64,000 bases of DNA from NCBI GenBank assembly GCA_033439295.1, contig JAVTLE010000010.1:2108001-2172000 (forward strand), written 5' to 3'. The stretch comes from Deuterostichococcus epilithicus. Lineage: Eukaryota > Chlorophyta > Trebouxiophyceae > Prasiolales > Stichococcaceae. A model generated the notes under the pieces. That model ran no database searches. It was not told the DNA's origin and saw nothing but the letters and a program-made list of their open reading frames with translations. Shown one piece after another: positions 1 to 60,629 of the stretch. The position numbers and the translations under genes are program-made. Within the stretch, counting starts at the first letter, position 1. Each line of letters begins with the position of its first letter.

Positions 1-3000
1 CAAGGGCGCCGAGAAGAAGGCCAAGGCGAAGGCGGAGAGCGACGCCAAGAAGGTGACGTCCGTTGTACAGAGACGCCTCGCCAGCCAGGAAGCCACGGCG
101 CTCACACCGTCGCGCTGCTGGCTCAGAGCGCACAAATGTGATGTCCAGGGACTGAAGTGTCGCATCGCTGCAGCGTCTGGGAGGCAGCCAGGGGTCCAAG
201 CAGCGAGCTGCCTGCGCCAGCGATGGTGCTCGCATGCGAGAGTCACACATGTGCGCTCATCAGTGAGGCGCCTCCCCCTGGGTGGCAGGCGGCCGAGGCG
301 GAGGAGCTGGCGGCGGCGCTGGCAGCCGCTCGGGCGACGCCAAAGGGGGAGAAGAAGGACACCTCAGCGGAGATGCTCAAGGGCTACAACCCGCCCGTCG
401 TGGAGTCTGCCTGGTGAGGCCCCTTCGCAGAGGGGCTGGCCGCACCTGGAGACCGTCGGCTTGCAGAGGCGCCTGCGCGCGGCGCGTGGCGTCCTTCTGT
501 CTTACGTCACAGGCTTGGCGGCAGGCTGTCGAGCGGGACGCCCAGTGTCCGTGCACGTGCATTTGCAGGTACGAGTGGTGGGAGGCGCAGGGCCTCTTCA
601 AGCCGCGCGCCGACGCCAAGGGGGAGCCCTTCGTGATGGTCATCCCACCGCCCAACGTGACCGGCTCGTTGCATCTGGGGCACGCGCTCACCAATGCCAT
701 CCAGGTGGGCGACGATGATTACGATTGAAGAGCACAAGAAGGAGGAAGTGTGTAACAGGAGTAGTGACAGCACTGGGAGGGAGGGTGAACGGAATATCGA
801 GCCACCATGACCTTGGCAGACCGCCAGCTGAGGGTCGGCAGCAAGATGGGGTTTTCCATCATGCCGCAGCTCAGGAAAGCCGCTGCTGCTGGATGGCGAC
901 CCAGATCCGTCGAACTGAAATTGCGCAGTCGTACCCCGGAAAACGTGCGTGTCACACGTGCGCGCAGGACACCATCATCAGGTGGCGTCGCATGCAGGGG
1001 CGCGACGCGCTGTGGATCCCGGGGACCGACCACGCGGGCATCGCCACGCAGACTGTGGTGGAGAAGACGCTGAAACGTGACCGCGGCCTGTCGCGCCACG
1101 ACCTTGGTGCGTACCGGCGGCTCCTGAATGTTTGCGCCTGAAGCCTGGCCGATGAGACGCAGTCAACTTGCCCTTCTGGGCCGTGCCAATGGTCTTCAAG
1201 TGCGACAGGGCGCAACAAGTTGTGGTCCGTGATGGAAGGCGGCAGCAGTGCTGCCCGCAACCCCAGCGTTGCCGCAGCCGGTGGCCGTTGCTGCCGATGC
1301 GTGGCCGTGTGGCTTCTGCCATGCCTCCTTCACCTTCTCGCAGAGGCTCAGCCGTTCGATGCGACTGCCTGAACACACTGCTGGCATGACGCAGAGCAGG
1401 AGGTGTTCTCAAAAGATGCTGTAACGTGATTGGAGCGGCACCAAGCCCAGTGTTTCCTGACCCTTGTTTCGGATCGCTTGGAGTGATGTTCCGCCTGTCG
1501 CAGGGCGGGAGGACTTCATGAAGGAGGTGTTCAAGTGGGTGGACCAGTACGGCAACACCATCTTCTCGCAGCTGCGCCGCATCGGCTCCTCCCTCGACTG
1601 GTCCCGCCAGGTAGGTCGACATCCGTGTCTCCACCCCTGATTCACGTCTCAAAGGCCACGAGGCATCACCGGTCGGTCTGCTCCAAAGGTCATGCGCCAA
1701 TCTTTGGGGCCAGCTGCCGCACTTTAAGGTCGTGGTCAGTGCGCAGCAGCAGCGGCAGCAGCAGCAGCCCATTGCTTCATGTTGACCAGGATTGATGCGC
1801 TGCAGCCAGCAAGTGGACCTTGTCATGCCGTGAGCGCTGGCGTGGCCGCAGGTGTTCACGATGGACGACAAGCTGAGTGCGGCGGTGATGGAGGCCTTCC
1901 TGCGGCTGCACAAGCAGGGGCTAATCTACCGCGACAACCGCCTCGTCAACTGGGACTGCTCCCTGCGCACCGCCGTGTCCGACATCGAGGTACCAGATTA
2001 AGTTTCAATGCTGTGTCGTGCGCCCAATCGAGGCACTGTCAGCTGCTCGGTCCTGGCGGCACGGGCTGCGCCCTGCGCATGCTCGTGCCAATGTGAGCAC
2101 TCGAAATCCTTCTTGCACTGGCCGCCCTGCTGCATCGAAGAGCATCGAAGAGCAAGAGCATCTCCGCACGGCACGTCATTGCGAGGGAGCCAGAGAGCCT
2201 GCAGGCTCAGGTCAGCGCCATGCCACAGGGCAAACGACCTCCCTGCAGAGCCCCTCCCAGTCCGAGACTGCCCGCTTCGCTTGCCCCGCCCCACAGTCAT
2301 CAAACCCTGAGATGCACGAGAACCTTAGGTAATGTGTGTTGTAACCCTCCAGGTTGAGGACACACAGCTGGACGGCATCACGCTCCTGAGGGTGCCCGGG
2401 TACGCCCAGCCGGTGGAGTTTGGCGCGATGAAGGAGTTTGCGTACCCGCTGGAGGGCGGCGGCGGCGAGCTGGTGGTGGCCACCACGCGCATTGAGACCA
2501 TGCTGGGCGACACCGCCGTCGCGGTGCACCCGGAGGACCCCAGGCGAGTCCGGCGGCGCACTTACTTGCCTGTTCCAGTCCATGAGACTGAGGCTGCATG
2601 ATGAGATGGATCCAGCGCACTGAGGCGGTGCTGGGCGACACCTGGTGGGTGGGGCACCAGGACGATGCTGTTCCACACGATCCTTTGATATTGTCCGAGC
2701 TCTCCTTAGGGCGTCTGCATCAAATGTGCCGCCATCTGACGTGCCGCCCCAGCCAGACTCCCCACCTGACAGTGTCTCTACCTGGGTCAGCAACCCCGAA
2801 GGCCGCCTCAAAGTTGCCAGAAAGCGGCACAACAGAGAGTCCCGTTCTCAACTCATGCCTGGACCCCAGACGTCTGTTGCGACGCACCTTAAACCAGACG
2901 GTAAACCAGGTGTTGGGGCAAACCAGAAGCACATGCGCCACTTGCATGCAAAAGGTTCGTAGATGCAGGAGCTGTGCAGGGCGGCACTGCCGAGAATTGG

Positions 3001-6000
3001 CTGCTTGGGTTTGCCGAAGTTGCTTCGATGCAGAAGCGGGCGGCCGCGTAGGTGCCTTCCGAGCCAAGAGGAGCCGCGGAGATGCGGCATCACAGCAGCC
3101 AGGGAACTCCAATGTCAAGGCTGCGCTTTACCACCAAAGGACGCTGCAAACTCTCGCCAGATCTCGATGCCACTGAGCAGCTCAACCTCCCAAACGCAGG
3201 TACAAGCACGTGCACGGCAAGTGCGTGGTGCACCCCGTGGACGGCCGCAGGCTGCCCATCGTGTGCGACGCCGAGGCCGTGGACATGACTCTCGGCACCG
3301 GCGCCGTCAAGGTGCGCGGTGCACCCTTCCTTAATCTGGTTTCGGGCTGTGCATGGCGATCTGCCTGAACGCATGACCTTGCTGGCCTCGGCCCATCCAC
3401 CACGCTGACTGCAGCAGGACCGCACGCTGCCAGCAGCACGACTGCTGGGCGCATCCCTTGTGCTGCTGCAGGCGGCGGTGCGGCGGCAGGGCGCACTTCG
3501 GAGTCGCCACTGGGGGCGTCCTTGGCGTGCCACAATCCGTTGCCTGCTGCTCGCAGATCACGCCGGCGCACGACGCCAAGGATTTCGCCACGGGCAAGCG
3601 CCACGACCTGCAGTTCATCAACATCTTGAACGACGACGGCACGCTCAATGGCAACTGCGGCCCGTACGCCGGTCGCCCGCGCTACGAGGCACGCCTGATC
3701 TGTGACACGTTGTCGATCCGACAACGTCGCATCGATGCACCACATCAGGAAGAGCAACAAGTTTCCTCTGGGAACAACAGCGCGAGCTGGCTGCGCCACC
3801 ACATACCTGCGTGCACAGCGCCCAGCCCCAGGCGGTGTTTTGCTGGTGCGCACAAGCGAGGCGATGCGGCAGCGTGGCCGCGTGTGTCGACAGACGGTGA
3901 CGCGCGACTGCCCGCAGGTGCGGACGACGATCGTGGAGTTTCTTGAAAGCAAGGGGCTGTTCCGGGGGACGCGCCCCAATCCCATGGTCCTGGGCCTGTG
4001 CTCCCGCTCCGGCGACATCATCGAGCCTCTGATGCGCCCCCAGTGGTGCGCTCCCCCCTCTTGGAGAACCGGTCCATCTGCGACGATTGACACCACGTCT
4101 GCAGCCTGCACGCCAGCTGGGCGCCGATGGGAAGGGATGCACGACAGCCGAGGGTGTCAATCCGGCGGCGCTGCGTGTCTGCAAGCTCTGTTCAGCTCCT
4201 GCGCGCAAACCCAAGGAGGGGTGCTCAGCATCCGAAACCGCCCTGCAAACAAGGGCGTCGTCACAACCTCGTGGCGCCAGTGGCAGAAGGCTGACTGCCC
4301 TGCTGCAGGTGGGTCGACTGCAGCGACATGGCGGCAAAGGCAAAGGCAGCATGCGTTCCGGACCCAAAGTCGGCGGTCAAGGGCGAGAGCTTTGGCATCC
4401 GACCGGCGGCAGCGCAGCGCGACTGGAACAGGTTGCTCTCCCTTCACCCTGACCTCGGGGCCACCCACCTCCTATTGTGGCTCTAGCGCAAGGGGTTTCA
4501 GGCGAGCTCGTGGTTGGCGCTATTGTGTCACGTGTGCACCGTCAGTCCTGCTGCGGCAAGGCCGTCTCCGCCGCCAGCAGATGACAGGACAACATGTGGG
4601 ACGGGTGCATCTCGAGGCAGCTGTGGTGCTGGCCCCGCTCCCAGCGCGTGACCATGCACGGCGCACCCGCAGGTGGCTGGACAACATCCGGGACTGGTGC
4701 ATCTCGCGGCAGCTGTGGTGGGGCCACCGCATCCCCGCCTTCTATGTGCTGTTGGACGGCGAGGGGGACTGCCCGCCCGGCGGCCCCAACGAGCGCATGG
4801 ACAGGTGCGTCAGGCTGGCAGGCCCTTGAACAGGAAATACACCTGGGAGTGAAGCTCCAGGCACGCCCCCGTCCGTGCAGTCTGGTCAGCTGCCCGCCTG
4901 GCGGCCCTGACGGGAGCGTGGTCAGATTCCCGCTGGCCAGCACAAGCCATCTCGGGCAACGTGGGACGAGGCCTTCGGCGCCACCTTGTGTTCCTTCCAG
5001 GAGCAGGCAGGAGCGAGCAGCAGCAGAGTCGGGTCGGGCCTGTAGGTGTGACTGATGTGGAGCCGGGAGGCCCAAGTGGCCTCTGTGGAACCACTCTGAC
5101 ATGCGAGCTTCCTGCTGCCAGGTGGGTGGTGGCGAAGGACGAGGCAGCGGCGCGCGTGCAAGCGGAGGAGCGCTTCACGGGGCGTCAGGTGTCACTCCAG
5201 CAGGTGCGGGGCTGTCCCTGCTGTGAGCCCAATGTTTAGAGCAGTGGGTCGCCAATTTTGGGTTGCTGCGCATACGCATGCGCCTGCTGCACGCCATCGT
5301 GCGCCTGTCTGTGCTGCGCGGCAAGGGGGCTGGCAGCCGCGGCGGCAGCTCGCCGGCGCCTCTGCCGGTGCAGTGCCTTCTGGCTGCCGGCGGCCTCTGG
5401 CAGCCTCTTTCTTGCCGCAGTGTTCCAGTGTGTTCCTGCGATTGTTCCCGAGTGTGTTCCAGCGCGGTCCCTGTCACCAAATCTGACGGGGCCCCTGCAG
5501 GACGAGGACGTGCTGGACACCTGGTTCTCCAGCGGCCTCTTCCCCTTCTCCGTGTTTGGGTGGCCCACCGCCAGCGGCGACCTGGAGCGCTTCTTCCCGG
5601 GCGCGTTGCTCGAGACGGGCCGCGACATCCTCTTTTTCTGGGTCGCCCGCATGGTCATGATGTCCATGAGCCTCACCGGTGCGCGTCCTGCCGGCTGGCA
5701 GAGCCCACGCGGCGCCTCCTCGGCCCGACATGCATTTCGCTAATGCCTGCCTGATGCACCCTTTCTGTGTGGCGCCGGGCTGCACATGCGGCATCATTCC
5801 ACGAGGCCCCTGCGGTGCAGAATCGTGCACGACATGGAGAGCCACAGCGCAGGACCCGCACCCGAGCTGACGTGCAACCGACTGCGATCCGGCTTGTGGG
5901 CGCAGGCAAGGTGCCCTTCGAGCAGGTGTACCTGCACGCGATGGTGCGGGACGCGCACGGCAACAAGATGTCCAAGTCGCTGGGCAATGCGCTCGACCCG

Positions 6001-9000
6001 GTGGACGTCATTGAGGGCATCTCCCTGCCGGAGCTGCACGCTAAGCTGCAGGCGCGAGCCCCTTGCATCTCCCCGCGAAACCCTGCACCAAGCCATTCCT
6101 TGAGCCGTGACCCCGGTGGCCGGCGCGGTGCCGGCGACAAGAAGGCCCTGCAGCCATTTGAATCCTGCCATTGTACGGTTCAGGGGAACGTCGCGCCCCT
6201 TGCACCCAGGTCCTGGTGCATTTACTGGTGCCCTGTTCCCTGCCTTGCCTGAAGCCTGCCCGCTGCGGTGCTGTGCAGCCACGTGCACTGAAGGCGAGCC
6301 TCCCGTCACAGAGCCTCCGGCTGCCGCAGCCCACCTGCTGCAGCGCAGGGCGTGAAAGCCTCCTGCAGCCTCTGATGCTGCCGCGGCTGCACTGACAAGC
6401 CCCGGGTCCAACCCTAAGCTCTCGTATCCTTGCAGAATTGCAGACGGTGCTGCCGCGACTGCCGGCAAGGCGTTTTCAGAGGCTCCTTGATAAGCCCTGG
6501 ACCCTGAACCTAATCCCTGAGCTCACCTTGCCGCATTGCAGACGGGCAACCTGGACCCGCGGGAGCTGGAGCGGGCAAAGCGTGCCCAGGCGTCCGACTT
6601 CCCGGACGGCATCGAGCAGTGCGGCACCGACGCCCTGCGCTTTGCGCTGGTGTCCTACACCACACAGGTCGGCAGCGTGTAGTGTTCGGGGATTTAGGGT
6701 CAAGCACGCCTTGCCTCGACTGCTGCGTGACCGTCCCAGTTGCGCCACGCTGTCGGGTGCCGCTGATCTCCTGTCCTGCTTGTGCCAGCCGCACACGGCA
6801 GCAGCGACACAGGCGCGGACCCGCTGGCATGTGGCAGAAGCTGCACTGCCCGTGCACGCACACAAGCTTGTCGGCAGCGGGTGGGCGTGCTTCCTGTCCC
6901 TGGTTGGTGCCCCGTGGGTTGATAGCCAGACGGGCGGCATGCTTGGTTGACACGACTGATGTGCGAGGTGGGCCGCGCGCAGGGCCGCGACGTGAAGCTG
7001 GACACTCCACAGCACTCCGCGACGCTGCACCGCTATGGTTGCTCATGCAAAGCATGCCTCGATTCCGCCGGTTCCGCCGCACGCAGGGCGGCGACATCAA
7101 CCTGGACATCAAGAAGGTTGTCGCCTACCGGCACTGGTGCAACAAGCTGTGGAACGCCATCAAGTTTGCGCTCAAGAACCTGGGCGACGGCTTCGTCCCG
7201 TCGCCCGGCCATGCCGCGGCCGGTCGGCCGCTGGCGGACCGGTGGGTGCTCAGCCGCCTGGCGGCTGCCGTGGTGGCGGTCAACGTGCGCATGGAGGACT
7301 ACGACTTTGGCGCCGCCACGCAGGTAGGGCCTTAAAATCGTCTGATGGGTCATCTTTCAAACGAGATTAGACTCAAGCATGGTACGGCAGACGAGCGCCT
7401 GGTGGAGTGCGACATCTGGCGCCGCCATGCAGGTAGGGCTCAGTGCAGCTGATGCGGTACAGAGCTCTGTAGCTCTACTTGTAGCTCTACTGTTGTGCAG
7501 ACGAGCGCCCATACTGAAGCCTGCACTCGCCGCAGTGCATGGGTGAAGTCGTAGGCATCGGCAAACTGTTCTGGCCGGCAGTAGTCAGACAGGCGCACCA
7601 GCGGCTCGGCGTTGCGCCAGCAACAGTCCCCACGAGGCACCTTCAAGCTTTGACTCCTCCTTGCCTAGGCAATCTGCGCCTCAGGGCTGGACCAGTCGTG
7701 CGACATCTCCATCTGGCCGACTGCGCATGTCCTTCTCGTTCCCCATGGTTTTGCCGTGATTTTGACCAGCGCCCCCCTTCCCGCCGCGCAGGCAATCTAC
7801 GCCTTCTGGCAGTACGAGCTGTGCGACGTCTTCATCGAGCTGACCAAGCCGGTGCTCGGCGACGGCTCGAGCGCAAGCGCCGACGCGGTGCAGACGACGC
7901 GCGACACGCTGTGGGTGTGCCTGGACACCGGCCTCAGGTGTGGGCACAGTCGCCGAAGGGCCCCCACGTTTGCGGCAGCTCCGGCTCACTGGCATCCTGT
8001 GCCAGAGTCGGACTTTGGCTGAGACAGCACATCGAGCGTGTCCGAACGGCCTGCAGACGGCCGCGCTGGAAAGGTTGCGGGCCGCTGCGTCGGCTGCCAT
8101 GATGGGCGCGGGGCCCGATCCTCTTGTGTCCTGCGCTCCCAGGCTGCTGCACCCCTTCATGCCCTTTGTGACGGAGGAGCTGTGGCAGCGGCTGCCGCGG
8201 CCGGCAGCGGCGGCGGGCGCCGCCGCGCTGTGCAGCATCATGGTCGCCGACTACCCGTTGCCCTACGACGCCGACGCAGCCGACTGGCGTGACGAGAAGG
8301 TGCTTGCTTGCGTTGCTTTTTGCCACATGCTGTTTGGGCTGCTGCGGCAATCGCCATAAACGCCTGTAAATACCAGGTGGTGCTGGTTGATGATCGCGTC
8401 GAACCGCACGACCCGCTTGCAATTTCAGCAGCTGCCTGCAGTTTGTGCAGTTTCGTGTCCGAATCCTTCAAAGGCGTCCTGCCGGCTCGCTCAGACGAGG
8501 AGGCAGACCTTGTGGTCTGTATGATAGCACATATGAACGTACGATTCCTTGGCAGGCTTGCACCTGGATTAGGCGCACACGAAGGAATAAAGCACGCTGC
8601 CGGACAACGACGAAGCGCTGATTCATAGGGATGAATTGCAGGCTGTCCGAGCATGTGAGCACTTCAACGTGTGAAGTTGGCACACGTCCCGAAGCCCCGA
8701 TGTCGCGCCGCAGGTGGAGGCGTCCATGGACGCGGCCAACCGCGTGGTCAATGCGCTGCGGGGGCTGCGGGCGCAGTACGGTCTCCAGAAGCAGAAGCCC
8801 GCCGTGGCGCTGGCGGTGTCGCAGGCAGCGGCGGCCGATGCGCTGGAGGCGTGCGCCGGCGCCATCGCCACGCTCAGCCTGTCGTCGGCCGTCACAGTCC
8901 TGCGGGTGTGGATCTTTGATGTAACAGTAGGATAAAATGAACTGTATCCTACAACAATGTTCTCGAGTCCCCGGCCTCAGCACTGCTCTCTGCGAGCAGC

Positions 9001-9846
9001 CCAGCTGCGAGTGAGCCGGTGGCTTTCGTCGCCAGCGGCGTCTGTGGAGGCATGGCTGCACCGCGAGCGTGCCGCCGGCTGCACGGACAGGTCCGCGCCG
9101 CGGCACCTGACAGCCGCTTGCCGACTCGCAAGTGCGCTCGCCTCGCTGCGTGCGAATGCAGCCGCGCAGGACGGCGGCTGGCTGGGCGGCGACCCCGGCG
9201 TCGAGGTGGCGGCCGCCGCTGCCGTAGCCTGACTGCATTGCACAGGCATCCTGAGACAGCTGAGTTGAGCGACTTGGTTCTGAATCAGTGCCACCGCGAC
9301 CGCAGAATGGCGGCTCGCCGGGCGGCGACACCGGCGTCGCGGTGGTGGACGCCACCACGACGGCGTACCTGGACCTGACGGGCATTCTGGACCCCGCCAA
9401 GGAGGCCGCCAAGCTGCAGAAGCAGCAGAAGGACGTGCGCGGTTTCCAGCACGTCGCGCTCGACCTCCGTGCCCCCTGCGTGGAGAGCCGCTTCGCTGCT
9501 GCACTGCTCCGTCGTGCCGGAAGCGGCACACGGCGCACGAGCCTGGCGCTGAGGCGTGTGCCCTGTCGCCGGAAATGCTTCACGGCACCGAAGAGGGGGA
9601 GGGGGGCTCTGTGAGCCTTCGCGGCCCTTCACAGTCCTGTGAATCGCCCAGATTTGACTAGTCTCAACACATGTGGGTGCAGGTGGCGGGCCGGCTGGAG
9701 GCGCTGGACAGGCGCACCGGGCTGCCGGGCTACGCCAACACGCCGGCGGGCGTGCGCGCCGATGACACGGCCAAGCGCGCCGCCCTGGCGTCGGAGCTCG
9801 CGGCGGTTGAAGAGAACCTGGCGCGCTACACCTCAAGGCTGGCCTA
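1..9846 (+). CDS. VARS: Valyl-tRNA synthetase (ValRS), 5'-partial, about 21 exons
   Basis: Class I aminoacyl-tRNA synthetase that charges tRNA-Val. Exons read from the sequence: 1-52, 289-413, 569-704, 966-1106, 1504-1610, 1852-1989, 2353-2543, 3200-3311, 3557-3688, 3918-4045, 4309-4431, 4673-4804, 5122-5203, 5501-5678, 5906-6051, 6542-6667, 7087-7323, 7792-7937, 8143-8299, 8714-~8905, 9306-9434 and 9683-9846. A small exon near 8980-9040 (reading [17 protein letters not shown]) is possible but unproven. The HIGH-type motif ([14 protein letters not shown]) lies in exon 3, the editing-domain signature [17 protein letters not shown] in exon 7, [15 protein letters not shown] in exon 12, [10 protein letters not shown] in exon 14 and KMSKS ([10 protein letters not shown]) in exon 15. 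The anticodon-binding domain ([14 protein letters not shown]) and the C-terminal coiled-coil arm follow, and the stop is TAG at 9844. The lysine-rich N-terminal extension continues left of the window. Introns after 2543, 3688 and 6051 need GC donors. Intronic copies of exon ends are listed separately. Confidence 0.96.
2608..2660 (+). repeat. Intronic partial copy of ValRS exon 7 3' part
   Basis: The segment starting GCGCACTGAGGCGGTGCTGG resembles the exon stretch at 2490-2543 that encodes RIETMLGDT. About 24 of the first 28 bases match, ending in the shared TGCTGGGCGACACC, after which similarity fades. It sits some 65 bp downstream of the GC donor of the same exon. I read it as a decayed tandem duplicate of the exon end. 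Confidence 0.6.
4577..4638 (+). repeat. Intronic copy of ValRS exon 12 start, with its acceptor
   Basis: The 62 bases from 4577 align without gaps to 4669-4730 at an offset of 92 bp, with about 51 identities. The copy includes the GCAG acceptor and the part encoding [10 protein letters not shown], which here reads [10 protein letters not shown]. It lies in the intron just upstream of the real exon. It is either a decayed tandem duplicate or a cryptic alternative acceptor. Confidence 0.8.
6376..6450 (+). repeat. Intronic duplicate of the acceptor region of ValRS exon 16
   Basis: The block running from GATGCTGCCGCGGCTGC through ACAAGCCC to ATTGCAGACGG (6376-6446) is repeated as 6447-6545, where it ends in the ATTGCAG|ACGGGC acceptor in use. 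The two ATTGCAG sites are 98 bp apart. The intron therefore ends in two tandem acceptor modules, separated by small length differences. Confidence 0.65.
7401..7439 (+). repeat. Intronic copy of ValRS exon 17 end, with its donor
   Basis: The exon end and donor at 7291-7330 recur at 7401-7439, 109 bp downstream. The last 23 bases (TGGCGCCGCCAYGCAGGTAGGGC) differ at one position, and the 13 bases from GGAGGACTACGAC match at 10 positions. A donor duplicate therefore lies inside the intron. Confidence 0.75.
7666..7714 (+). repeat. Intronic copy of ValRS exon 18 start, with acceptor-like TAG
   Basis: Forty-seven bases starting AGGCAATCTGCGCCT align gap-free to the acceptor and start of the exon at 7790-7836 (about 36 identities, offset 123). 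The copy keeps TAG at the acceptor position. The same intron also holds a copy of the upstream exon's end, so both of its borders have been duplicated inwards. Confidence 0.65.
9165..9223 (+). repeat. Intronic copy of ValRS exon 21 start, with its acceptor
   Basis: The 59 bases from CGCAGGACGGCGGCTGG align gap-free to 9301-9359 (about 47 identities, offset 136). In the real exon this part encodes [17 protein letters not shown]; the copy reads [15 protein letters not shown] and then stops. It is a decayed duplicate or a rarely used alternative exon. Confidence 0.75.
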
Positions 9847-11422
9847 GGGTCTGCCTGGGCTTTCGGATGCCGGAGAGGGTTCCTAATGCGGCCAGGGGGT
9901 CGTGGCCGCGCCCCGGTCTCGACTTTGTCCACCCCGCAGCCGGCGCCAGCGCCGGCGGCCGATGCTGATGTGTCCGCGGCGGCAGGCCGGACAGCGTGCG
10001 CCGGCAGGGAGGCTGCACCACTGTGGGCGTCCCCGTGACGCGCCTCCTGGCGGCGCTTGTCCGTTCAAGCGCGCTGCTGCATTGCGGTAGCTAGCTCCTG
10101 CGGTGGCTGCTGCAGCTGAAATCGCGCACCGCGCATTGCGCTCACCAAATCCTGCCAACGTCTGAACAGCTGGCACAGATTGAATAGGCCCAGAGCTCAC
10201 TGCGTAGGTAGTCAATTCTGGATACGGTATGCCAGACCATGTCGTGCCGTCTTGCGCCTCAGGAACCTTTGCCCCCCGCACACAACCGCTGCTGTCAGCC
10301 CTTCACTTCCGGTACCTCTCAGAAAGTTTTCACCACTCACAAGAGTGGTGTCGAACAGAAGTGACGCACAGCCAGGAGACGGACACAGCACTCGAGGCTG
10401 GAGGGGTTTGGAGTGTGAGAGTTGACCCAGACAGTTGACCTACTACCCGCGGGTACCTAGATTCTGGTGTCGCATCTGGTCAGTCATCTGGGATACAGCA
10501 CCCAGGCTGGTGCCAGTGCTTGTCGGCGAGGTGGATGCAGTCGTGGTGCCATGTGTGAGTCGTGGTTGCGTGTGCTTCTCTGAGGCCATGCGGACATTGA
10601 GACATTAAAAAATTCTGTTACAATGCGCCATCACGCGCCATGGACTGCCAGCAGGGCCTGCGCACTGAGAGCGACTGCTGGAAGTACATGCACATGCGCG
10701 GCCAAGACAATAGAAATTCCTAAACCAAACTGCGCGCACCACAGCGGCGCAAGGAACCGTGCTGACCCCGTCAAATTGGTCCTGGTTGACGGCATGCCAC
10801 TGCAACAACACAGACCCCGAGCAGATGCAAGACTGTCAACAAACACAGGTCACGAAGTCCGAGCGACAAAATTCAAGTCGAATGTGGTCACTTCCCCAGC
10901 TCGACAGACCTAACACCCCAACTGCTCATCAATGTGTCACAAGACTGTGCGCTTCCGATTTGCCACCACCATCTCCGCTAGACAGTGCTGCATGTCCCGC
11001 CTACAGTCTCCCTCTACACAAACCTGAAAGTAATTCTGTCTGCTGCAAATGGCAATTCCAGCGCGTAGCTGCGTGCTGTCGTGCATCTGCTGCTGCAAAA
11101 GATGCAGCGGCACATGTCCGACAGCACAAGCGGCCGAGCGCTGCCACTGGTGTTAAGGACTGCCGGCCGCCTTTGCACGCCGACCGGTAGTCATCGCTTG
11201 GCTGGTCAGGGATAGCGGAGGCAGCGTCCAGGTGTGGCAGAAAGGTGGCCATGGCGCCACTTGACGGCATACTGGCGTCCAGCTGGTCTGGTCGCCTGGC
11301 GCGTTGGGAGCTGTCTTTTGTCGTGGAGCTGCTCGCCGCTGGCGGGAGGCTGACTCGCTGGCTTGATCACTGAGCAGCGAGGCCGCCCGCCGGCAGCGCA
11401 GCTGTCGCGCCGGCGGCGGCGC
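9847..11422. other. Intergenic region, no gene recognised
   Basis: This lies between the convergent ends of ValRS (+) and the expansin-like gene (-). No conserved protein or RNA was recognised. It contains an 8-bp perfect hairpin at 10331-10350 (CACCACTC, loop ACAA, GAGTGGTG). Small reading frames here have no recognisable content. Confidence 0.5.
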
Positions 11423-13468: not shown

Positions 13469-14541
13469 CGCAAGCCGGCTCCACTTGTGAGATGGGTTGG
13501 TCCTACGCACAGAGGATCAGGCCCGTTGGATCGGTGCTCGCACTGCCAAACAGCTTAGCGGGCGATCTGACGACCGCGAAACTACGAGGCCCGGGATCGA
13601 GGCCGGTGCGGCAGCGGGTTGAGCAGCTTGTGTATCTGAAGCCTGGCCGTCTGCAGGCCGCAGGCGGATATACAGATGTGCTGGCGGGCCAAGAAAGTTT
13701 GAACGGTCCCAGCTCACGGCCGCCAGCAGGCACAATCAGTAAATGTTCCGGTGCCAATGCCGCGGATTCCGTGAAGTGGGAGACGCTAAGCTGACATCCT
13801 TGACATGAGCATTCAAGATGCTCAACGGCGGGCGTCCCGAGTGCGGGCCGCGGGCTAAGTGTCGATGCACCCCGGAAAGCGTGACCGGTACGTCGTGGCC
13901 GACCACATACGATCGGTGCGCAAGTGACACCGTGCTGCGTCTATCTCAGCGGATCTGGCCTGCTTGCCGAAGTGTGCGATTGCTGTGGCGCTCATCAGCT
14001 TGCTTGCACGTCGCAGCTTGACAGATCCTGACGGCCGTTGATGCAGTTCGTATGAGCCGTGCGCCGGATCGGGCGTCAAGTCCGGCCTCCGTGACCGTCA
14101 CCGCAATCGTAGCGCAGTCACAACACCGTTTGCCATCAATGGCAAGCGCGTCGTGCAACGGATCCCACGATGGACAGCCTGTTCCGCTCTCTACCGACCA
14201 CCATCGATCGGCCAGTCGTTTTTTGTGGGCCAGGTTCCGGATCAGGCTGCACCTCGTTAGACTTTGAAGGAGCTAGTTCCGTCCTTGCGCTGCCTCTTGC
14301 AGAAGGAGTCACACGCGCTGTGAGTCGGCTCACTCACCCGCTGGAGATGTGTGGTCGCCCGGTGTGGCAGCCGAAACTCGTAGACGCGACGCGTCCAACG
14401 GCGTATCCCTGATTCGGTGCGGCGCAGCGAACTATGATATTTTGCTGGATGGAGTGGCTCGCAACTGGTCACACGGCGGCTGGGCTTGATGCGTTTATGC
14501 CCGCTGGGGGCATAAACCCTAAAACTCTTTAGTCAGAGATC
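13469..14541. other. Region without a recognised gene
   Basis: This lies upstream of the expansin-like start codon and so presumably contains its promoter. Short frames on both strands show no known motif. The part from about 13.8 kb rightwards may belong to the decayed LINE whose tail follows, but I saw no reverse-transcriptase motifs. Confidence 0.4.
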
Positions 14542-14983
14542 TTGGGAGTCTGCCTGCGGTCAGACTGGCCCGGACTCCATTTTAACAGGACTCCCAGGCT
14601 TGGATCTCCGGGGTCCGGGCAGCACAGCAGCAGCGGGCTTGGGAGGCGCTCAGCGTGTGCCCTCGGACATGCCAGCCGAGTGCACATACTGGCGGTGGTT
14701 CTCCCGCACGCCGCAGCAGCAGGAGCGCTTGAGGATCTTCCGGCAGCGGCACTCGGCGCGGCGCATTGGCATCTATCTACGGTTTCAGTTGGGCTGCAGC
14801 GACCTGCCAGTGGTGATGGGCAGACGGGACGGCACGGCCAGGCACCCGCGGCGCTGCCAGCAGTGCAATGATGCGGCGGTGGGCGATGTGCGGCATGTGG
14901 TTTTTGAGTGCCCAGCAGTGCAGCACATTTGCGACCAGCACTCGGGCCTGTTCTGGGTTGGTCAGTCTATGCGTACTCGTTAA
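14542..14983 (+). mobile_element. LINE (non-LTR retrotransposon) C-terminal fragment, RT-associated zinc finger
   Basis: The frame encodes a module typical of the last ~100 residues of non-LTR retrotransposon ORF2: YLRFQLGCSDLPVVMGRR, then RHPRRCQQCND and VRHVVFECPAVQHI. This matches the C-x2-C...H-x4-C finger that follows the reverse transcriptase in plant and algal LINEs. No endonuclease or polymerase motifs were found upstream, so the copy looks 5'-truncated, as is common for LINEs. The frame ends at TAA 14981-14983. Confidence 0.6.
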
Positions 14984-15092
14984 GCCAATCAGGTCGAGGT
15001 GAGGGACATTATTGTTGCTTGCTTCGACAGTTCTCAGACAGTCTAGCTTTGCAGTGATGGGGACACCCCGTGGCTGGCACCCTTTCAGCCCC

Positions 15093-32500: not shown

Positions 32501-33509
32501 TCGCCAAGTCGCCACTGCATCTTGGAAGACCAGCTGCGCGGGCTGCTGCAGCTGCAGGCAGGTGCCCCCGCATGCATGATTGTCCCCATAAGGGAGATCC
32601 CCCGATCACCTCCGGAGAGGCGCCGCTGTCCTACCACAAACCCCGACACGTGAGCTTGCAGGCAGCCTACGACCTTGGGCCGAGAGCTGGACCCTCGAAT
32701 ACCCTACAAATCAACGCCTGGACCTTACCTCCAAGATGTCGCAGGTATCCAGGCGCAGGCACTCGGCGTGCAGGGCGCCCCAATCCACCCACAGCAGCAG
32801 GAAGCCGGAGAAGGCGGCAGTGAAGCCGAGCGCCAGCAGATTCAGCACCCGCGCCGCCACAATCACCCAGAAGCCCTTCTCTCGGTAGTACCTGTTGCGG
32901 TGGGGCATTCAGGGCTGATGAGGGTGATTATGGGCAAAACTGAAGCACATTGTGATGATGGTACCAGCGCCGTGGCGCCAGCAGTTTCAACAGCTTCGCC
33001 ACCACGACCTTTTGGAAGAGGTGGTCCTGGTGATACCATCCAAAGAGGTGTGCCGAAATTCCGAGCTCCATGGTGGCGCCGGGATGCGTCGTGGGTGGTG
33101 CCGGTGCCGCAGACCTCCGGGATGCGCACTCCGAGAGGCGCTGTGCCCGTGCGAACCCAGCCTGCCTGGTCCTCACTACAGGAGACTCGAGGAGCACTTT
33201 GCAGTGGCCATGTGCACACCTGTAGACGCGGTCGAAAAAGAGGTCCAAATTTGGAATGGCGCCCCATTCCACCTCGCCACTCTCCACCAGGTCCGGGCTG
33301 GCATCGCCGTCCGGGCGCCGCCAATCCGCCTCGCTGCCCGCCCGCTCGTCCCTGAGGATGCCACGCGAGAGGGCGCACGTCTCAGGCCTGGTGCGGCGCG
33401 AGTCTTGCACGGATGTGGCGCGCCGTGGGACCCTGTGCTGTGGGGCGCCCTCACGGTCCGCGGCCGCGTGCAGCAAGGCATCGTGCCAGGCTTCCACGAG
33501 GACGTGCAC
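26572..33509 (-). CDS. ATG9: Autophagy-related protein 9 (ATG9), multi-pass lipid scramblase; exact start unresolved
   Basis: ATG9 vesicles seed the phagophore. Exons in reading order: ?-33220, 32891-32729, 32367-32230, 31987-31898, 31657-31567, 31219-31039, 30783-30598, 30361-30182, 29803-29707, 29401-29227, 28766-28635, 28461-28212, 28019-27748 and 27564-26572. Family blocks in order: IPNLDLFFDRVYR, YYREKGFWVIVAARVLNLL (first membrane segment), KRDLTEHDVVSRIMRKDNYL, GMLNKGVLALNVP, TKTLEWNLRWGVLDHMFDD, FLRNAEQLYHHPSSVGARRW, IGQFPSPLLGQGARFVAFIA, HTHHMPRHWRGRA, LLAEEMLSILATPFVLYF, GNPRYGSP and GKMEKSLLSFATTYPGWEP. The cytosolic tail is long, Gly/Ser-rich and disordered, with a GSGSGSG run, a perfect 12-residue tandem repeat and LMLQSFYEEQE. 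The first exon stays open to 33509 without an ATG, so an upstream start exon is likely. N bases lie in the 31038-30784 intron. Confidence 0.94.
27080..27152. repeat. Perfect 36-bp in-frame tandem duplication in the ATG9 tail
   Basis: Two adjacent copies of a 36-bp unit beginning GGTCGTCAGCGGCAGCGAAG start at 27082 and 27118. They encode two copies of SNASRASLPLTT on the minus strand. A (GCCGCT)n run encoding Gly-Ser repeats follows at about 27158-27192. The perfect identity points to a recent event or to selection on the repeat. Confidence 0.85.
31800..31890. repeat. Tandem repeat in an ATG9 intron
   Basis: Two similar blocks (GCTACAAGCGACAACCTGCT to CTCGAC, and GCTGCAAGCGACGATGTGCT to CTCGACAGG) lie side by side just past the donor of the exon ending at 31898. 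On the coding strand one copy contains tcgcttgcag, an acceptor-like string. Confidence 0.6.
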
Positions 33510-35286: not shown

Positions 35287-38200
35287 TCACAGCCAGACGC
35301 CGATGGAGCCGTCATACGAGCCAGAGAAGACGCGGCCGTCGGCGACGGCCAGCACACGGACGGCATCCTCGTGCCCCTCGCACTTGCGCACGCAGCGCAG
35401 GCTATCCAGCGCCCAGAAGCGCACCTGCAGGTGTGTGATGAAACACACAATTGGAATTTGATGTCATATTGGGTCCAGAATATACAGGTGTGTCGGTGCG
35501 GAGTCTGTGGCAGGGCGCCAGCTGCGGGAGCAGGGCCGCGTGCGAGGCGCGGCGACCGCCTCACCAAGCCGCTGCGCCTGCCGAGATGGCGCTCACAAGA
35601 GGGCGGCAGGGGCTCTGTGCGCAGGAGGGCCGCAGACACGGCGGCGTCCTTGGAGGACGCAGCTCACAGTCGGCTTCTCGGACAGAGTGCGAGTGTTGGG
35701 GGCGCCAGGTGGGAGCCCTGGTGGGAGCCTGCAATAAGGGGATACTCGGTCCAATTGAGGTGGACTTTGATTCCCCGCTGCGGGCGGCGGGAGCGCACCG
35801 TGGTGTCGTAGGAGCCGGATATGAGGTGCCCGCCGCCGACCGCCAGTGCCAGGACCGCCTCCAGGTGGCCCTCCAGCACCTGCAGGCCGGGAGCACGACG
35901 TGCGGCTCGAGGACGTGTTGGCGGCGGCCCTCGTGAGGTCAGAAGGCTTATTCTGAGGGTACGGGAGCAAGGCGGCGTCATCCAGCAGAGCGCCAGCACC
36001 GCCTGCGGGAGACGACCCTCCTGCGGCCAAGGCGCGCCTCGACAGTGTGCCGGCAGGCACTCAACGAGCCCTGCCGCCCCCGCCCCCGTCCCCTTGCACA
36101 CCCTGCAGCCTGCTCACACCTTGGAGCACTCCAGGGTGTCCAGGTCCCACACGCGGATGGTCTTGTCCCAGGAGCCAGAGAACACGTGGCGGTCCCCGAC
36201 GGCCAGCACGCGCACATTGTCCTCGTGCCCCTCCAGCGTCTTCATGCACTGCAGCGTCCCAGAGTCCCACACCTGCGCAGGCACACATGCGGATGGGGGA
36301 CTTCAGCGAGATAGTTTTTCAGTAATGAGCGCTTCAGTTCAAGGTGTCTTGCAGCGCACCGCAGCGGGTCCTGGAGCCCTGCGCCTGTGTGCAAGCTGTG
36401 TGCAAGCTGGCGTTGGTGGTCGACGTGCGCCGCTGCCATCAAATGTGCGATGCCGCAACACATCTTTTCTCAACGCCACCCGTGGAGGGTTCGCGTGCAC
36501 TGGATGGTAGCCTGCCGTTTGCGGCTGTTTGTTGGCTGGCACCAGCGTGCCGGCTCAAACTGCAGAACACTTGTCCAGTCTGCTGCTGCCAGGGCGCACC
36601 TTGATTGTGGTGTCGTCCGAGCCGGAGAAGACCTTGGTGGGACTGGCTGACAGCGCTCGCACGGCGCCACTGTGACCTGTAGACAAATAGCGACGGCATC
36701 AGCAGTTTGCAAACAGCGGCACAAGGCTCTGCCCAGCTGACAGTGTGCGGATGGTGTCCCTTGCCTTGCCCTACCGCAGTTTGCAGCTGCTGCAGGCGGC
36801 AGCAGGCCGCCACTGCGTCGTGAAACTCTCAGCGACGTCGACACGGATGCATCTCCAGACAGCCCGCCAAGCAGCAGGGGGGCCGGCACCTTGAAGCGTG
36901 GCCAGGCACTTGAGGGTGTTGACGTCCCAGACGCGCACGGTCTTGTCGTAGGAGCCGCTGAACATGCGGCCACCGGAGTAGACAAGCGTGCGCACCGGGC
37001 CACTGTGGCCTTTAAGCGTGTCGATGCACTCCAGCGTCGCGATGTCCCACACCTGCCATGCCGCGCAGAATCAGTGGATTAGTACAGCTTTCTCTGTGTG
37101 TTGGTCGCCAGCTTCCCTTAGAACACGATGCAGTGCAAGCAGCACGGCTCATGGGTAAGACAATCAATATGACAGGTCTGTGATCCCCATGACATGTGCA
37201 TCCATGTCCACCATGAGCGCGCGGCAGGTGCAGGCAACTGCACTTCCACGCGCGGAATCGACTGCGCTGGACGCACGGTTGAGCAATTCAGCGCTCCGCA
37301 GGCGGCTGCGTCTGTGACTCGCGGTGCCGTCGCCGCAGCCTGCTGGCACTGGCAGCCACGTACCCAAGCCGTGACCCTCTCCGAGCCCAGGCCGCGACCC
37401 TCTCCAAGGCATCAGCAATCCTCCACAGATATATACAAAATTGGATAGCCGGCACAAAGGCCCCACCTTGACGCTGCCATCGTAGGAGCCTGAGAACAGG
37501 CGGCCGTTGGACACCGCCAGGGCGCGCACCGCGTCCGTGTGCCCTGTCAGCGTCTTCACCCGCCCCAATGTCTCCAGGCTCCACACCTACGTGTTTGTTG
37601 AGGCTTGGTTGGTCTTGAGGTGCAGAGCTTGACGCCCGGCTGCATGTCACGCCTCAGAGGCCGCCTGGAATAGTGTGATGGACGCAGGGACGGGTTGCCA
37701 TGGGCGTGCATGCCAGCAATGGCATGAGGTGCATTTGAATGCGCAGGGGCGCTAAACCCCAGTACCGTGCAGCATTGCATCTGCCTTGGAACCACCAAAA
37801 AGGAGTGGTCACGCCAGCCAGGGAAGAGCTTGTCATCGGTGTCACGCCACCGCCAGCAATGCATCATCGCGCTAGCAGAGACCTACCGGACCCGAACCAA
37901 AGTCAACAGGAAGAGTTGTTTCTCTGGATTTTTCTGTCTTGTCACCTTGATGGAGTAGTCGTAGGAGCCGGAGAAGAGCTTGCCATCGGCGCACGCCAGC
38001 GACAGCACCGGGCGGGAGTGGTCCTCGAGCACGCGCTCGCAGCGGCGCGACTCAATGTCCCACACCCGGATCGTCTTGTCTGCTGACGCGGAAAATAGGC
38101 GGTGGCCGGCAACCTCCACCGCCCACACGATCTCGTCGTGCCCCTGTGTGGAGGAGGGCGAGCAAGCAGGTCAGCAGCCAACAGTCAGCGCATGTTGTAC

Positions 38201-49300: not shown

Positions 49301-49561
49301 CGCCCGAGGTGGTGCCCGCCTCCCTCCTTCCCCGCTGCCGCTGCAAGAGTCCAAATCAAAGTCCTGTTTCAAGCTGTGTCTGCCCTGCGGCAGGTGCTGG
49401 AGGGCATGCGCTCGGCGGTGGAGGCGCAGGCGGCCGAGGCGGGGCGCCTCCTGCGGCTGCGCGGCGGCGTCGAGCACCTGCGCTCGGGCGCGCCGCTGCC
49501 GGCGCGCCAGGACGCCGCCAGCCTGTACACCCTGGAGCGCCTGGACCTTTCTCAGCTGTGA
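43384..49561 (+). CDS. NOL11: NOL11-like nucleolar ribosome-biogenesis protein
   Basis: NOL11 works with the t-UTP/SSU processome in pre-rRNA transcription and early 18S processing. Exons: 43384-43527, 44049-44313, 44470-44771, 44945-45200, 45391-45592, 45856-46033, 46267-46495, 46862-47084, 47508-47678, 47812-48042, 48288-48500, 48721-49182 and 49394-49561. The first exon (SEETPLALSTLLRGTGNLLG) parallels the human N terminus. Beta-propeller-like strands follow (GVAIVLSDGSVYAVRL, LALLWSDGTLQTYDVGV). GAKTPKKKRKALPNG holds an SV40-like nuclear localisation signal, and ALALVSNDHVVVVGWEAG matches the family's DHVAVLG region. C-terminal blocks align in order with human NOL11: ALALLRYLSSWLRLH, LARVVEWAAAVLDAQ, and the terminus SLYTLERLDLSQL (human NRGLYSIEVLELF). 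An Ala/Ser/Gly-rich insert lies in exon 12. Two N bases (45921, 45978) disturb the frame of exon 6. Confidence 0.7.
46556..46621 (+). repeat. Donor-region repeats and small hairpin in a NOL11 intron
   Basis: The exon end and donor at 46481-46504 (GTGTGCCGCTCAGGTAATCAC) is echoed at 46574-46598 (ATGTGCCCTCAGGTGGTCACC) and at 46597-46621 (TGTGCCCCTCCGGTGGTAACC). The two copies are about 24 bp apart. A perfect 8-bp hairpin (ATGCTCCC, 7-base loop, GGGAGCAT; 46556-46578) lies immediately before them. Confidence 0.5.
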
Positions 49562-50311
49562 GGCGCCACACTGAAACATAGAGCGACGTGGCAGGCAGCC
49601 AGCGAGCCAGGGCGGGGGTGCTGCTGGGCCTTGCTGGCAGACGGAGCATGCAGGGACGGAGGCTGCCCTACACCGGCAGAGGACATCAGAAGATTGGGTC
49701 TGCGACATGCTGTGGGGCATCTTGGCATCCGCGATTGCGACGGCGGCAGTAGCGAGCAGCAGGGAGGTCTGAGAAGAAGCAGTAGAGGGTCTGGAGCAGC
49801 CGGATGTGTTACATTCAATACAACACCAGGTGCCGAATATTTCCATGCCAAAACACAGCATACACCACATCCTAGCCTCCAGAACATGCAGATGGAGTCA
49901 CCTCACTATTCTGCTCATGCGCAGTGCGTGTATTGCGGCAGACCCAACAAGACCACAACAGTATAGCATCTCAACGAGCACGACATGATGGGGCGGCTCT
50001 CATTGCAGCACGACAGCAGGTGTCGGCAGTGCACATGCAGCAACAGCAGCTGTACGGACGCAAACAGTAAGACATCAGGCACTTGCAAATGACCAAACAC
50101 GTGCAGGACACGTTGTGTGGCACTCTAGATTCGATTCACCTTCCTGCGCGCCCTAAACGGGCCCGTCCGACCATGACACAAAGGTTGCTGGCCAGGGTGA
50201 AGATGGCCAGCATGCGCCTGCGGCCGCACCCGCTGGCCCAGGCGGCACACACCGCATCTGGTGGAGTGGTGAAAGCTTGCGACAAAGCTTGCGGGGAAAG
50301 CCGCAGGCGTC
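49562..50311. other. Intergenic between convergent genes
   Basis: This 750-bp spacer holds the 3' ends of the NOL11-like gene (+) and the membrane-protein gene (-). It is more AT-rich than the coding parts. No gene was recognised. Confidence 0.45.
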
Positions 50312-52389
50312 TCACTCCTCAACGACATTGAAACCCTCAAAGTCGACGCCTGCGGGCATAGCAACGCAGGAGTTGCGTGTGGACATGGTCTGACAGCGAT
50401 GCAGATGTGCCGTCATGACGCCGCCAAAGCACTCATGCATAGTCGTCTCACCGATCATGTACATGAGCATGTAGAAGCAAAAAGTGACCTGCGGCGGCAG
50501 TCCAGAGCAGAAGTGAACGCAGGTAACGATTTGCAGGATGTCTAGCAGATCGCCATCAACAGAGTGCAGCAGGCTGTCAAGAGCAGATGCAGCTTGAAGG
50601 ACGCTGTGAGCCGCCCTATAGCAAGATTTCTTGTCTGGCAGCAGGATGGGAGCTAGCAGGCAAAGTCACCATGAGGTAGCCTGCAAAGCCGACGCGCGCT
50701 TCAATGTGGATCTGCGATGCGGGAACCAGCAAGCATGTGGGTGTTTGTGGACACCCGGTTTGAGGTCCAATTGCTTGTGGTCTTCGGACCAGTGCCTGTG
50801 CAACACTGATGACTCCTTGCCTCCAAGTGCCGGTGCTCTCTGTGTGTCTCAGGTCCAGCAGCTTTGCAATTGCGCAGTCTGCAGCGCTGGCGGCAGACTG
50901 CCAGATCGTTGGCGGATATTCTGCAAGACGCAGCTGCCGGGCTGCGGGAGGAGGCGGGTGGGGTGCAAAATGGGAGCGCACGTTGCCCCAATGGCCGGTG
51001 ACCATTCTGAGGTCCTACAGGCACTTCAATGTCGTGCTGTGCGAGGGGAGGCGGGAGCAGGGGAGCGCACGTCGCCTCGGTGAGCGGTGACGTTTCTCAG
51101 GTTGTTGAAAAAGTCGGCGACAATGGTGGACAGCACAATGCCGACTGCCAGGTAGCCGACGAGCATGGTGCGCGCGGTCGCCAGGTACCGCATCTTCTTG
51201 GACACGCAGATCGTCACCATCACCTGCACAGCAGCGCGCGCATCGGCTACACATAGGTCGCATGAACCTCGGGTGACTGAGCGTGTGCTAGTGCTTCGCC
51301 GTGATGCAGGAGTCCAACAAGCAGCGCTGGCCTGAGTCACACCCAGCCAGGGTTGAGAGGCGGTGTGTAGTGTGTCACACGTGCCAGAGATCCTGAGAGC
51401 ACCAACCACAGAGAAGATGCAAAGCGCACCAGGACGACGAGGTCGTAGCAGACAACCCACCATGGCAGCCGGAAGATGCGCTTGCACCTATGTGCAGCTT
51501 GCATTGATCAGCACCGGGCTCGAGACGGTAGCATACGGAAGACGGCGGGGTTTACTTAGAGGCACATCCTTCTGACAGGCACACTTCAGGGTGCAGCAGG
51601 AGGAGATGCAGAGTTGGTGTTCGGGGTCGCCAGCCATGAACGTCAGTGGTCACTGCGGAGCACTCGGGGTTGTCCAGAACGAGACGCACGCGATCTGGGG
51701 GCCGCCGACGAGGTACGACCAGGTGTGGACGCCCTTGCGGCCGTCGCCGTGCACGCAGCGATCCTGCGCCGCCGACACGCCGCCGATGGCCACCACCCAC
51801 GTCATCCATGCCAGGATCAGCCAGATGCTGCGCGGCAGGGCGCCAAAGCGTCAGCCGGGCAAAGGGCACAGCGGCGGCAGGCGACGCCAGCAGGGCACAG
51901 CAAGTGCGTTCAAGGGCACAACAACTGCGTCCGCAGCTGTCGAATGACCAGCAGCACCATGGCAACAAACTGCACGTCGAGGTTCGCCAAGACCACCACT
52001 GCGCCATATCGTGTGCCAGCTCACACCAACCGCAGGAGGAATTGACGCAGCAGGACTGCGCCCAGAAGCGCACATGGTAAAAGCATGTCCCGATATCCAG
52101 CGGGCTCGCCCCCGCTTCCCCTTGGCGGCTGCATATCAGCATAATGCCACCATGGATGAAGATAGCATTGCGGCATATTCAATCTCCATCCATTCCTGAT
52201 AGCATGCTCCGGTGCATGCGTGTCTGCCGCCATTTCGATTGCAGAAGACATACGCACACTGGCCACACATGCGACAATTGCGAACATGGCGAAAAGTCAT
52301 CCTATGCAGGTACCCGGAATGCCTGAGCCAGGTAGTGCCTTCTTGATGCCTGCTTCGGCCGCACGAGCAGGGTCACTGCCGTTTGCCAT
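50312..52389 (-). CDS. Multi-pass membrane protein of unknown family
   Basis: Probable exons in reading order: 52389-52314, 51998-~51925, 51827-51654, 51487-51381, 51233-51092, 50711-50670, 50488-50452 and 50349-50312. One or more exons may be missing near 52.1-52.3 kb and 50.9 kb. The start is the ATG at 52389 (MANGSDPARAAEAGIKKALP). Hydrophobic segments follow: VVLANLDVQFVAMVLLVIRQ, SIWLILAWMTWVVAIGGV, WWVVCYDLVVLVRFASSLWL, TMLVGYLAVGIVLSTIVADF, and a last one spread over three micro-exons (ARVGFAGYLM, VTFCFYMLMYMI, G). The protein ends GVDFEGFNVVEE. Between the second and third segments is a Cys-containing loop (DRCVHGDGRKGVHTWSYLVG). I do not recognise the family. The consistent alternation of loops and membrane segments across good splice sites argues for a real gene. 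Confidence 0.55.
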
Positions 52390-53541
52390 GGCGCTTCCTG
52401 CCAGCAGCTTTGCCTGATTGATCTATCTGCTTCGCGTGATGTCTACGGCAATGGACACCAACCGTTCATTCGAACATTCAGGTGTCTGATCTTGAGCAGC
52501 GCACGTCTGCTTCAACCGAGTTCGGGACATGTAATCAACACTGATTGTCTGCCCTGCTGAAGCGGCATAGGCAGGCTGCGCACTCTCAGTGTCCACCACC
52601 TGTTGCTTGACATTGCACAAGGCCGACCTTTCCAGAGACAAGGGAGCCGCAATCACTGAAGACACCGCCGGAGAAGGCTGCACAACAGTCTACTGCAAAA
52701 TGTGCATCACCATCGAGCAAAGCGCTGCTGACCACGCCGAAGTCGCTTGAAATAGAACACATGCTCGGGAACCTGCCTTGTGCGCGTCTCGCAGTCTTCC
52801 GGATGGCCGGCCCGGTAGTGTCCGCAGAGCCCCGTGCGCTGAAACTGCCGTGAAATGCAGCGGCGGTGCGGTGGGACTGCCTTATAAGGAACTCGGGTAC
52901 AGTACAAAGCGCCCAAGAGGAGCGACCAAGCATACGAGGCTGGCAGCAACGGCTTATCGCTTTCAGGGCTGGATGCAAACTCCGAGGAGTGATTGATGAC
53001 GATTGGTCCGAGGTCCACGTGTCAAACAGCAAATACAACCTTCACGCACAGCAGGTAGAGGTGTGCGGGCAAGGCGGCTCGGCTGTATTCTGCTCGAGAG
53101 CAGTGTTCACGGCGATGTACCCACATTCAATTCACGGAGCTGTGGCCAGAACAACCTGGCGACAAGGTGATGTGATGCAGGTGCAATGTGAACATGACGG
53201 CAAAGAGGGCCGCAGATTCTGCAACCTCCTGTTGGCAACTTTGCAAGTCCCCTTGCAGCAAGCACAGCGCCAGGAGTTTCTGGAGAGCGAACAGCGGCAG
53301 CCGTCGCAGACTGCTGTAGCACTAGCACTAGCAATCGCGGCCTTCAAAAGAGCCCTGCAATGTCGGGGCTCTTTGGCTGAGGGTGCCCTCCAGCCGATTA
53401 ATCCGCAGCCCGCCTGCCGCTGCTGCAGCGCTTCTGTTGTGCCAGCAGCACGGCGGACTGCTGGCCGCCATGCCACCCAGCACCCGCTCCACCACTAAGC
53501 GCCTGCACACCCGCCCGCAGCGCAACTTGGGCTCAAGGCGC
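52390..53541. other. Region without a recognised gene
   Basis: This lies between the start of the membrane-protein gene and the end of ATP synthase f, both on the minus strand. Frames of 150-210 codons exist on both strands but start at GTG, show no motif and have no supporting splice context. It presumably contains a promoter and a 3' UTR. Confidence 0.4.
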
Positions 53542-54537
<996 letters not shown>

Positions 54538-54770
54538 GGTGGCCCTGCACCTCTCGGCTGCACCACAGCGCGCCGCTGTGCCGCACGGTGCTGCCAATGA
54601 TTCACGACTTGCAAACCTAACGTGCAACTGGCCGTTTGGTCCTGCACTCCAGATCTGCGCCCTGAAGGTCGAGCAGGGTGGAGAAGAGACCGCCCTCAAT
54701 TGCTCCAAGGTGCAGCCGGGCTGCGATCCGCACGTCAGAGGCGACTGCTTGTGTTCCCGATCGTCTCAAT
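54538..54770. promoter_or_regulatory. Short divergent (probably bidirectional) promoter
   Basis: The start codons of ATP synthase f (-) and LysRS (+) are 233 bp apart and point away from each other. The interval is GC-rich, shows no TATA box and has one CCAAT at about 54594. It must contain both 5' UTRs and core promoters, so shared regulation is likely. Confidence 0.6.

Positions 54771-60629
<5,859 letters not shown>

Follow-up and report, generated by a model that had tools for sequence, protein, structure and literature searches.

The window, a stretch of 64,000 nucleotides of the GC-rich Deuterostichococcus epilithicus genome (46.8 Mb in 21 contigs) that corresponds to bases 2108001-2172000 of contig C9, contains two synthetase genes which, from their motifs, we take to encode ValRS and LysRS, a gene for a U-box/WD40 protein and further genes at 28-33 kb and 50.7-51.8 kb. 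Matches to Pfam confirm both synthetase classes and the U-box/WD40 protein. Gene models were built ab initio using a hidden Markov gene finder trained on the organism's own genome with Pfam tRNA-synt_1 matches as seed. The gene finder reproduces almost the entire exon structure of ValRS and LysRS, a few exons being doubtful; models outside these two genes are less certain, some predicted short exons being false and distorting a few intron lengths. It also called coding a (GCA)n microsatellite at window 53663-53768, which is some 35 units long.

The DNA analysed comprised the window and 250 kb from elsewhere in the genome, 314 kb in total. The first diagonal scans covered 264 or 200 kb, whilst the test on 723 junctions and the anatomy of 25 cases covered 304 kb. 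The full 314 kb set was used for the junction-anchored test on 283 introns, the unanchored test on 747 junctions, the context counts and the simulation.

Introns of the window genes contain decayed duplicates of the edges of the exons that adjoin them (Table 1), and these duplicates are real. The original prediction had put their number at ten or more, mainly in ValRS and LysRS with others in the U-box/WD40 gene; the unanchored test finds 13, of which six are in ValRS, four in LysRS, one in the U-box/WD40 gene and two in other genes. One of the ValRS copies (9165..9253) was partly called as an exon (9170-9205) by the gene finder and is therefore outside the 283-intron and 747-junction counts.

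Table 1. Copies of exon edges in adjoining introns of the window (window coordinates)
Gene and exon edge	Copy	Source	Strand	Offset (bp)	Identity	Remark
ValRS, start of exon at 4673	4574..4638	4666-4730	+	92	82% over 65 bp	
ValRS, exon end at 2543	2615..2665	2487-2537	+	128	73%	originally placed at 2608
ValRS, exon end at 4804	4890..4927	4769-4806	+	121	79%	
ValRS, acceptor and start of exon at 7087	6972..7004	7076-7108	+	104	85%	
ValRS, exon end at 7323 with GTAGGGC donor	7415..7439	7306-7330	+	109	92%	
ValRS, acceptor AG and start of exon at 7792	7667..7721	7790-7844	+	123	75%	shares intron with copy at 7415
ValRS, start of exon at 9306	9165..9253	9301-9389	+	136	72% over 89 bp	
LysRS, exon at 58529	58426..58455	58543-58572	+	117	90%	begins 14 bp inside exon
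LysRS, start of exon at 59039	58912..58953	59036-59077	+	124	83%	
LysRS, exon end and donor at 59184	59252..59305	59154-59207	+	98	83%	includes 23 bp of intron
LysRS, acceptor and start of exon at 59581	59466..59526	59567-59627	+	101	87%	includes 14 bp of intron
U-box/WD40 gene, exon end at 37946	37793..37839	37943-37989	-	150	72%	
Gene at 50.7-51.8 kb, exon end at 51071	50970..51013	51059-51102	-	89	77%	intron-side homology, p 0.005
Gene at 28-33 kb, exon 32729-32891	32975..33007	32830-32862	-	145	79%	from 29 bp inside exon

Evidence that the copies are not chance matches comes from several tests. In the unanchored local test, a same-strand copy of the exon edge was found in the adjoining intron, at a short offset and on the intron side of its own junction, at 27 of 747 exon-intron junctions. 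These matches fall on four contigs (C9, C12, C5 and C1), with 13 at the 104 window junctions and 14 at the 643 elsewhere (Fisher 1.3e-5, for a window that was itself picked for the pattern), so that the pattern extends beyond the window. When the exon edge was compared with the adjoining intron at those junctions with a well-scored exon, a score of at least 40 was reached at 15 of 723 (9/143 in the window, 6/580 elsewhere), compared with a mean of 0.05 over 20 sets of shuffled exon-intron pairings. Reverse-complement copies of the exon edge were seen in the adjoining intron at 0 of the same 723 junctions. The junction-anchored test on 283 introns gave nine donor-side matches against 0.00 expected and 14 acceptor-side matches against 0.2 expected. 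These 23 matches are spread over 21 introns, two of which (7324-7791 and 59185-59580) have both exon edges copied. The copies are thus local, same-strand, recurrent, non-random and on the correct side of their own junction, which upholds this part of the earlier interpretation, and the shuffled-pairing check suggested with it, run on 304 kb, separates true from shuffled pairs.

Scans that make no use of annotation point the same way. A same-strand diagonal scan of the window identified 17 matches at offsets of 85-154 bp, none at 50-84 bp and 15 across 155-1500 bp, the locally shuffled window giving one in all. Over 304 kb, direct offsets form two groups, with 37 matches at 20-59 bp and 41 at 80-139 bp, separated by six at 60-79 bp and followed by three at 140-159 bp. 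Most of the shorter group are ordinary tandem repeats in which each copy spans the full offset; in the longer group, most matched stretches fall short of it. Direct matches numbered 117 against three in shuffles, and inverted matches 18 against six. Sorted by context, pairs at offsets of 50-229 bp (314 kb) comprised 36 exon-noncoding, 18 exon-exon and 17 noncoding pairs. In the shuffles for this count, matches of any kind numbered nine, two and five. At two other synthetase loci we found a single case each, that at L032 being absent from the unanchored set and that at L033 lying outside the synthetase matches, indicating that the density cannot be put down simply to the genes being synthetases.

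An assembly or haplotype artefact is barely credible as a source of these copies: they are approximately 5-35% diverged with the differences evenly spread, their matches lie on four contigs, and the six N of the window fall in none of the copies listed.

Two sets of cases were used to define the anatomy of the copies. The 25-case set was hand-picked from scan and exon-edge matches, omits ambiguous, multi-copy and WD40-repeat pairs (such as C5 77807, C12 7094/7146 and window 6428, 36889 and 59970) and serves for the codon-position, spectrum and identity-profile analyses. The 32-row set adds the junction-anchored matches and serves for offsets, splice-site retention, fourfold sites and the matched-identity comparison. 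The mean offset is 112 bp with a range of 50-217 (32 cases), so that the 92-150 bp first proposed was too narrow. Similarity mostly takes in 20-60 exon bases and the splice consensus before falling to chance level. Within the 25 cases, exon-side identity is 0.71-0.75 over the first 30 bases and reaches baseline by 60, and intron-side similarity mostly ends within about five bases of the splice site. On the acceptor side, identity is 0.65-0.76 at -1 to -3, above chance to -5 and at baseline from -6; on the donor side it is 0.75-1.0 at the splice consensus, above chance to about -7 and at baseline from about -8. Beyond the consensus, aggregate intron-side identity is about 0.27, which is the baseline. 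In the unanchored set, the near edge lies within -14..+6 in 19 of 27 matches, six of 27 start at least 5 bp inside the exon and seven of 27 extend at least 11 bp into the intron. When each spacer was aligned with gaps to its outer flank, p<0.05 was reached in four of 26 cases (C12 9482, L029 4876, C5 64779 and window 51071), with about 1.3 expected by chance.

The sharp step in identity at the splice site could be original. A process tied to splicing or to exon-intron structure might copy no more than the exon edge and three to five splice-site bases, and insert them into the same intron, in most cases at a distance of 50-150 bp; the intron half would then never have existed. The 19 of 27 near edges at the junction fit this well, as do the 36 exon-noncoding pairs set against 17 noncoding ones and a pair at C12:55488 that is 95% identical over 43 bp and has no intron-side homology (p 0.64). 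We nevertheless consider such junction-limited copying unlikely, given the seven of 27 matches that run on into the intron, the homology in four of 26 spacer tests and the similar edge that a simulation of old tandem duplications yields (see below). Moreover, the flanks of the copies are unlike the neighbouring exon end past the first base or two, so spliced RNA was not the template, and a spliced-RNA origin was rejected on this ground. We know of no mechanism for the copying of exon edges limited by the junction.

The spacers bear on a further possibility, namely that a filler of about 65 bp was inserted where the exon edge had suffered a staggered break, giving a target duplication of 30-60 bp and a spacer made of new sequence. 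Most spacers are indeed unrelated to the outer flank (22/26 tests not significant), and in the one case searched the spacer is unique in the genome. This, too, appears improbable: there is intron-side homology in a minority of cases, the model offers no reason for the edge to sit at the splice site, and target duplications of 30-60 bp are unusual. The idea that an old intron was inserted in its entirety, nested together with its two exon edges, was set aside but not refuted; both sides are copied in two of 21 carriers, against 0.45 expected from the marginal counts. Carriers of donor-side copies have a somewhat raised acceptor-side score (4/7 at or above the 90th percentile of the null), the converse not being seen in acceptor-side carriers.

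The copies themselves behave as non-coding DNA. Differences are even across the three codon positions (71/334, 74/332 and 75/335) and the spectrum of change is mixed, with 122 transitions and 98 transversions (25 cases for both), indicating that the copies are not preserved for a coding role. Hypermutation was rejected in view of the mixed spectrum, and a coding paralogue as source because differences are not concentrated at third positions. It had been claimed that most copies include the acceptor or donor. As a correction, the donor GT or GC survives in eight of 12 copies and the acceptor AG in ten of 20. The survival of these sites, and the fact that several copied donors score like real ones, would be expected if the copies served as decoy splice sites or as alternative exon edges and were maintained for that function. 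That they are so maintained is improbable, however, since retention overall (18/32, 0.56) is no better than elsewhere in the copies (squaring the mean identity of 0.795 gives about 0.63), coding constraint is absent, the polypyrimidine signal is only weakly above background (z 1.5) and offsets divisible by three are not favoured (6/32).

We favour the view, to which we would give a probability of around 0.6, that the copies are decayed relics of short local direct duplications that spanned an exon-intron junction, mostly of about 70-175 bp with a mean offset near 110. Local tandem duplication across the junction, as put forward in the original prediction, is the best fit, and some pairs are visibly tandem across the junction (the 7/27 and 4/26 cases above), but the intron half lies at baseline in aggregate. 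Both the spacer of one case and a 221-bp LysRS stretch (59420-59640) match only themselves in the genome, which argues for a local source rather than a transposable family; a dispersed element was rejected on the same evidence. Carrier introns are longer than others, with medians of 395.5 (n=14, two of them probably false splits) and 231.5 (n=218). This agrees with the proposal that the process lengthens introns, and would follow if an intron grew with each event by roughly the offset.

Duplications of this type would arise through ordinary break repair, either by fill-in at staggered nicks or by synthesis-dependent strand annealing joined end to end. With the outer splice site staying in use, the inner exon edge would turn intronic and decay without selection. 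The exon half of the duplicate should remain recognisable longest, the true exon being held fixed by its coding role, whilst the intron half would change on both sides and fade first. For an edge as sharp as that seen, most events would have to be old, or the decay of introns would have to outpace that of the exon copies by a factor of two to three.

To ask whether plain tandem duplication can give such an edge, we simulated duplications of about 110 bp on the acceptor side only, with the observed base-specific decay rates and the same scoring. With all ages from 0 to 0.6 equally likely, 57-66% of matches are predicted to reach at least 11 bp into the intron, compared with 26% observed (P 0.001 or less). 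The prediction drops to 36-47% if introns decay two times faster than the copy (P 0.18 and 0.024) and to 27-35% if three times faster (P 0.56 and 0.21). With ages restricted to 0.2-0.6 and equal rates, 30% is predicted at 0.15 indels per substitution (P 0.42), with a near-edge median of -3 that equals the observed value. At 0.06 the prediction is 46% (P 0.027), so the old-age fit depends on the higher indel rate. Combining old ages with faster introns predicts 10% or less, which is too few, and even the old-age setting that fits well predicts 12% reaching 25 bp into the intron against 4% observed. Detection in the old-age setting is 0.09 for intron-internal duplicates and 0.30 for junction ones, which fits the 17 noncoding and 36 exon-noncoding pairs. 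When exon-copy identity is matched, intron similarity is 0.28 in 15 cases, where simple tandem decay leads one to expect 0.39-0.50, and 0.29 in five cases, where 0.65-0.76 is expected; introns decaying two- to threefold faster fit this comparison. The sharp edge can therefore be an effect of decay, but this requires young events to be scarce or intron evolution to be rapid. Freely ongoing duplication does not fare well, as uniform ages predict far more intron-side homology than is seen unless introns decay faster.

Complete young duplications of such size are rare. The clear ones are L031:4009-4107, whose unit is 83 bp long, and C5 70142, where 60-bp units form an array. The L031 repeat (4009-4190) is a near-complete tandem duplication in noncoding DNA, 83% identical over 99 bp, and is of the kind expected to be common were the process ongoing.

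This scarcity sits uneasily with tandem duplication, as do other observations. Fourfold-degenerate sites of the true exons are without extra change (37/205, compared with 156/744 at positions 1-2), and, dated by these sites, the exons look too young for the divergence of their copies, unless codon constraint is very strong. The latter may explain the unchanged synonymous sites, GC3 being 345/375 and third positions thus 92% G or C, although some tension remains. In addition, one would expect the original upstream acceptor to remain active just after an acceptor-side duplication, presumably to the detriment of the gene. The duplication reading does not account for the frequency of the copies, for the rarity of young cases or for the unchanged synonymous sites.

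Duplication across a splice boundary has already been described. In the potato RdRp gene, a tandem duplication crosses an intron-exon boundary (PMC4974935), and the copy of the exon start lies upstream of the acceptor of the downstream copy, as in the cases reported here. The potato event created a new intron with its donor inside the copied exon, whereas the copies described here are decayed, affect both donor and acceptor sides in many genes and give no indication of a new intron. What is new, relative to the potato case as there presented, is the number of decayed cases. In vertebrates, repair-mediated duplication by capture of proximal DNA likewise yields short, closely linked duplicates that include partial exon/intron donors and splice sites, and its two fully duplicated exons lack coding constraint; its donors are mostly intronic (278 against four partial exon/intron) and one duplicated exon is inverted (PMC2671141), whereas our visible cases lie at exon edges and none of 723 junctions has an inverted copy. 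Break repair by end joining and fill-in produces small tandem duplications, described as insertions under 100 bp, in mouse cells (PMC8355091). The likeness lies in the small tandem duplications; that system, as excerpted, is an experimental one that does not concern splice junctions.

A relation to intron gain from AGGT-containing segments had also been suggested. In that model, as summarised in the introduction to the potato study, the duplicate of an AGGT segment gives rise to an entire additional intron, whose length is the same as the offset (PMC4974935). Local duplication affects splice sites in both instances, but the geometry differs: offsets here are about 110 bp in carrier introns of 231-993 bp (21 introns) and imply no new intron, so the link finds no support. 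Introners are dispersed families of similar introns (PMC9860276) and resemble the present copies in bringing about repeated intron changes across a genome, whereas here unit and spacer match only themselves. No dispersed family was found with the one spacer and one LysRS unit searched, a search that short diverged relatives could escape. Our search of the literature, largely without subscription papers, found no genome-wide survey of exon-edge copies in introns.

If these duplications are ordinary and yet as frequent as 27 in 747 junctions, they represent a source of intron lengthening and of spare splice sites. Exon edges would then act as a fixed ruler against which old duplications stay visible, those internal to introns having faded. 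If, instead, the edge at the splice junction is original and not an effect of decay, it would reveal a new link between splicing and DNA change; were junction-limited copying true, splicing or exon-intron structure would guide changes in DNA that make introns longer and give rise to cryptic splice sites.

Three individual cases merit description. The 95% pair at C12:55488 (L014:5488-5662, offset 132), in a gene that is presumably MYB-like, is the most similar of the longer pairs, and it has diverged more next to the junction than in its interior, a pattern that later copying or conversion of the interior could produce. On C5, one intron (L026:7689-8337; piece 77689-78337) contains more than one copy of a single exon start, at offsets of 127, 210 and 291, two of which are 79% alike over 67 bp. 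Finally, the predicted GC donor at L026:8775 (C5 piece 78775) has a decayed copy that likewise reads GC, which, to judge from the sequence, suggests that the splice site itself was duplicated.
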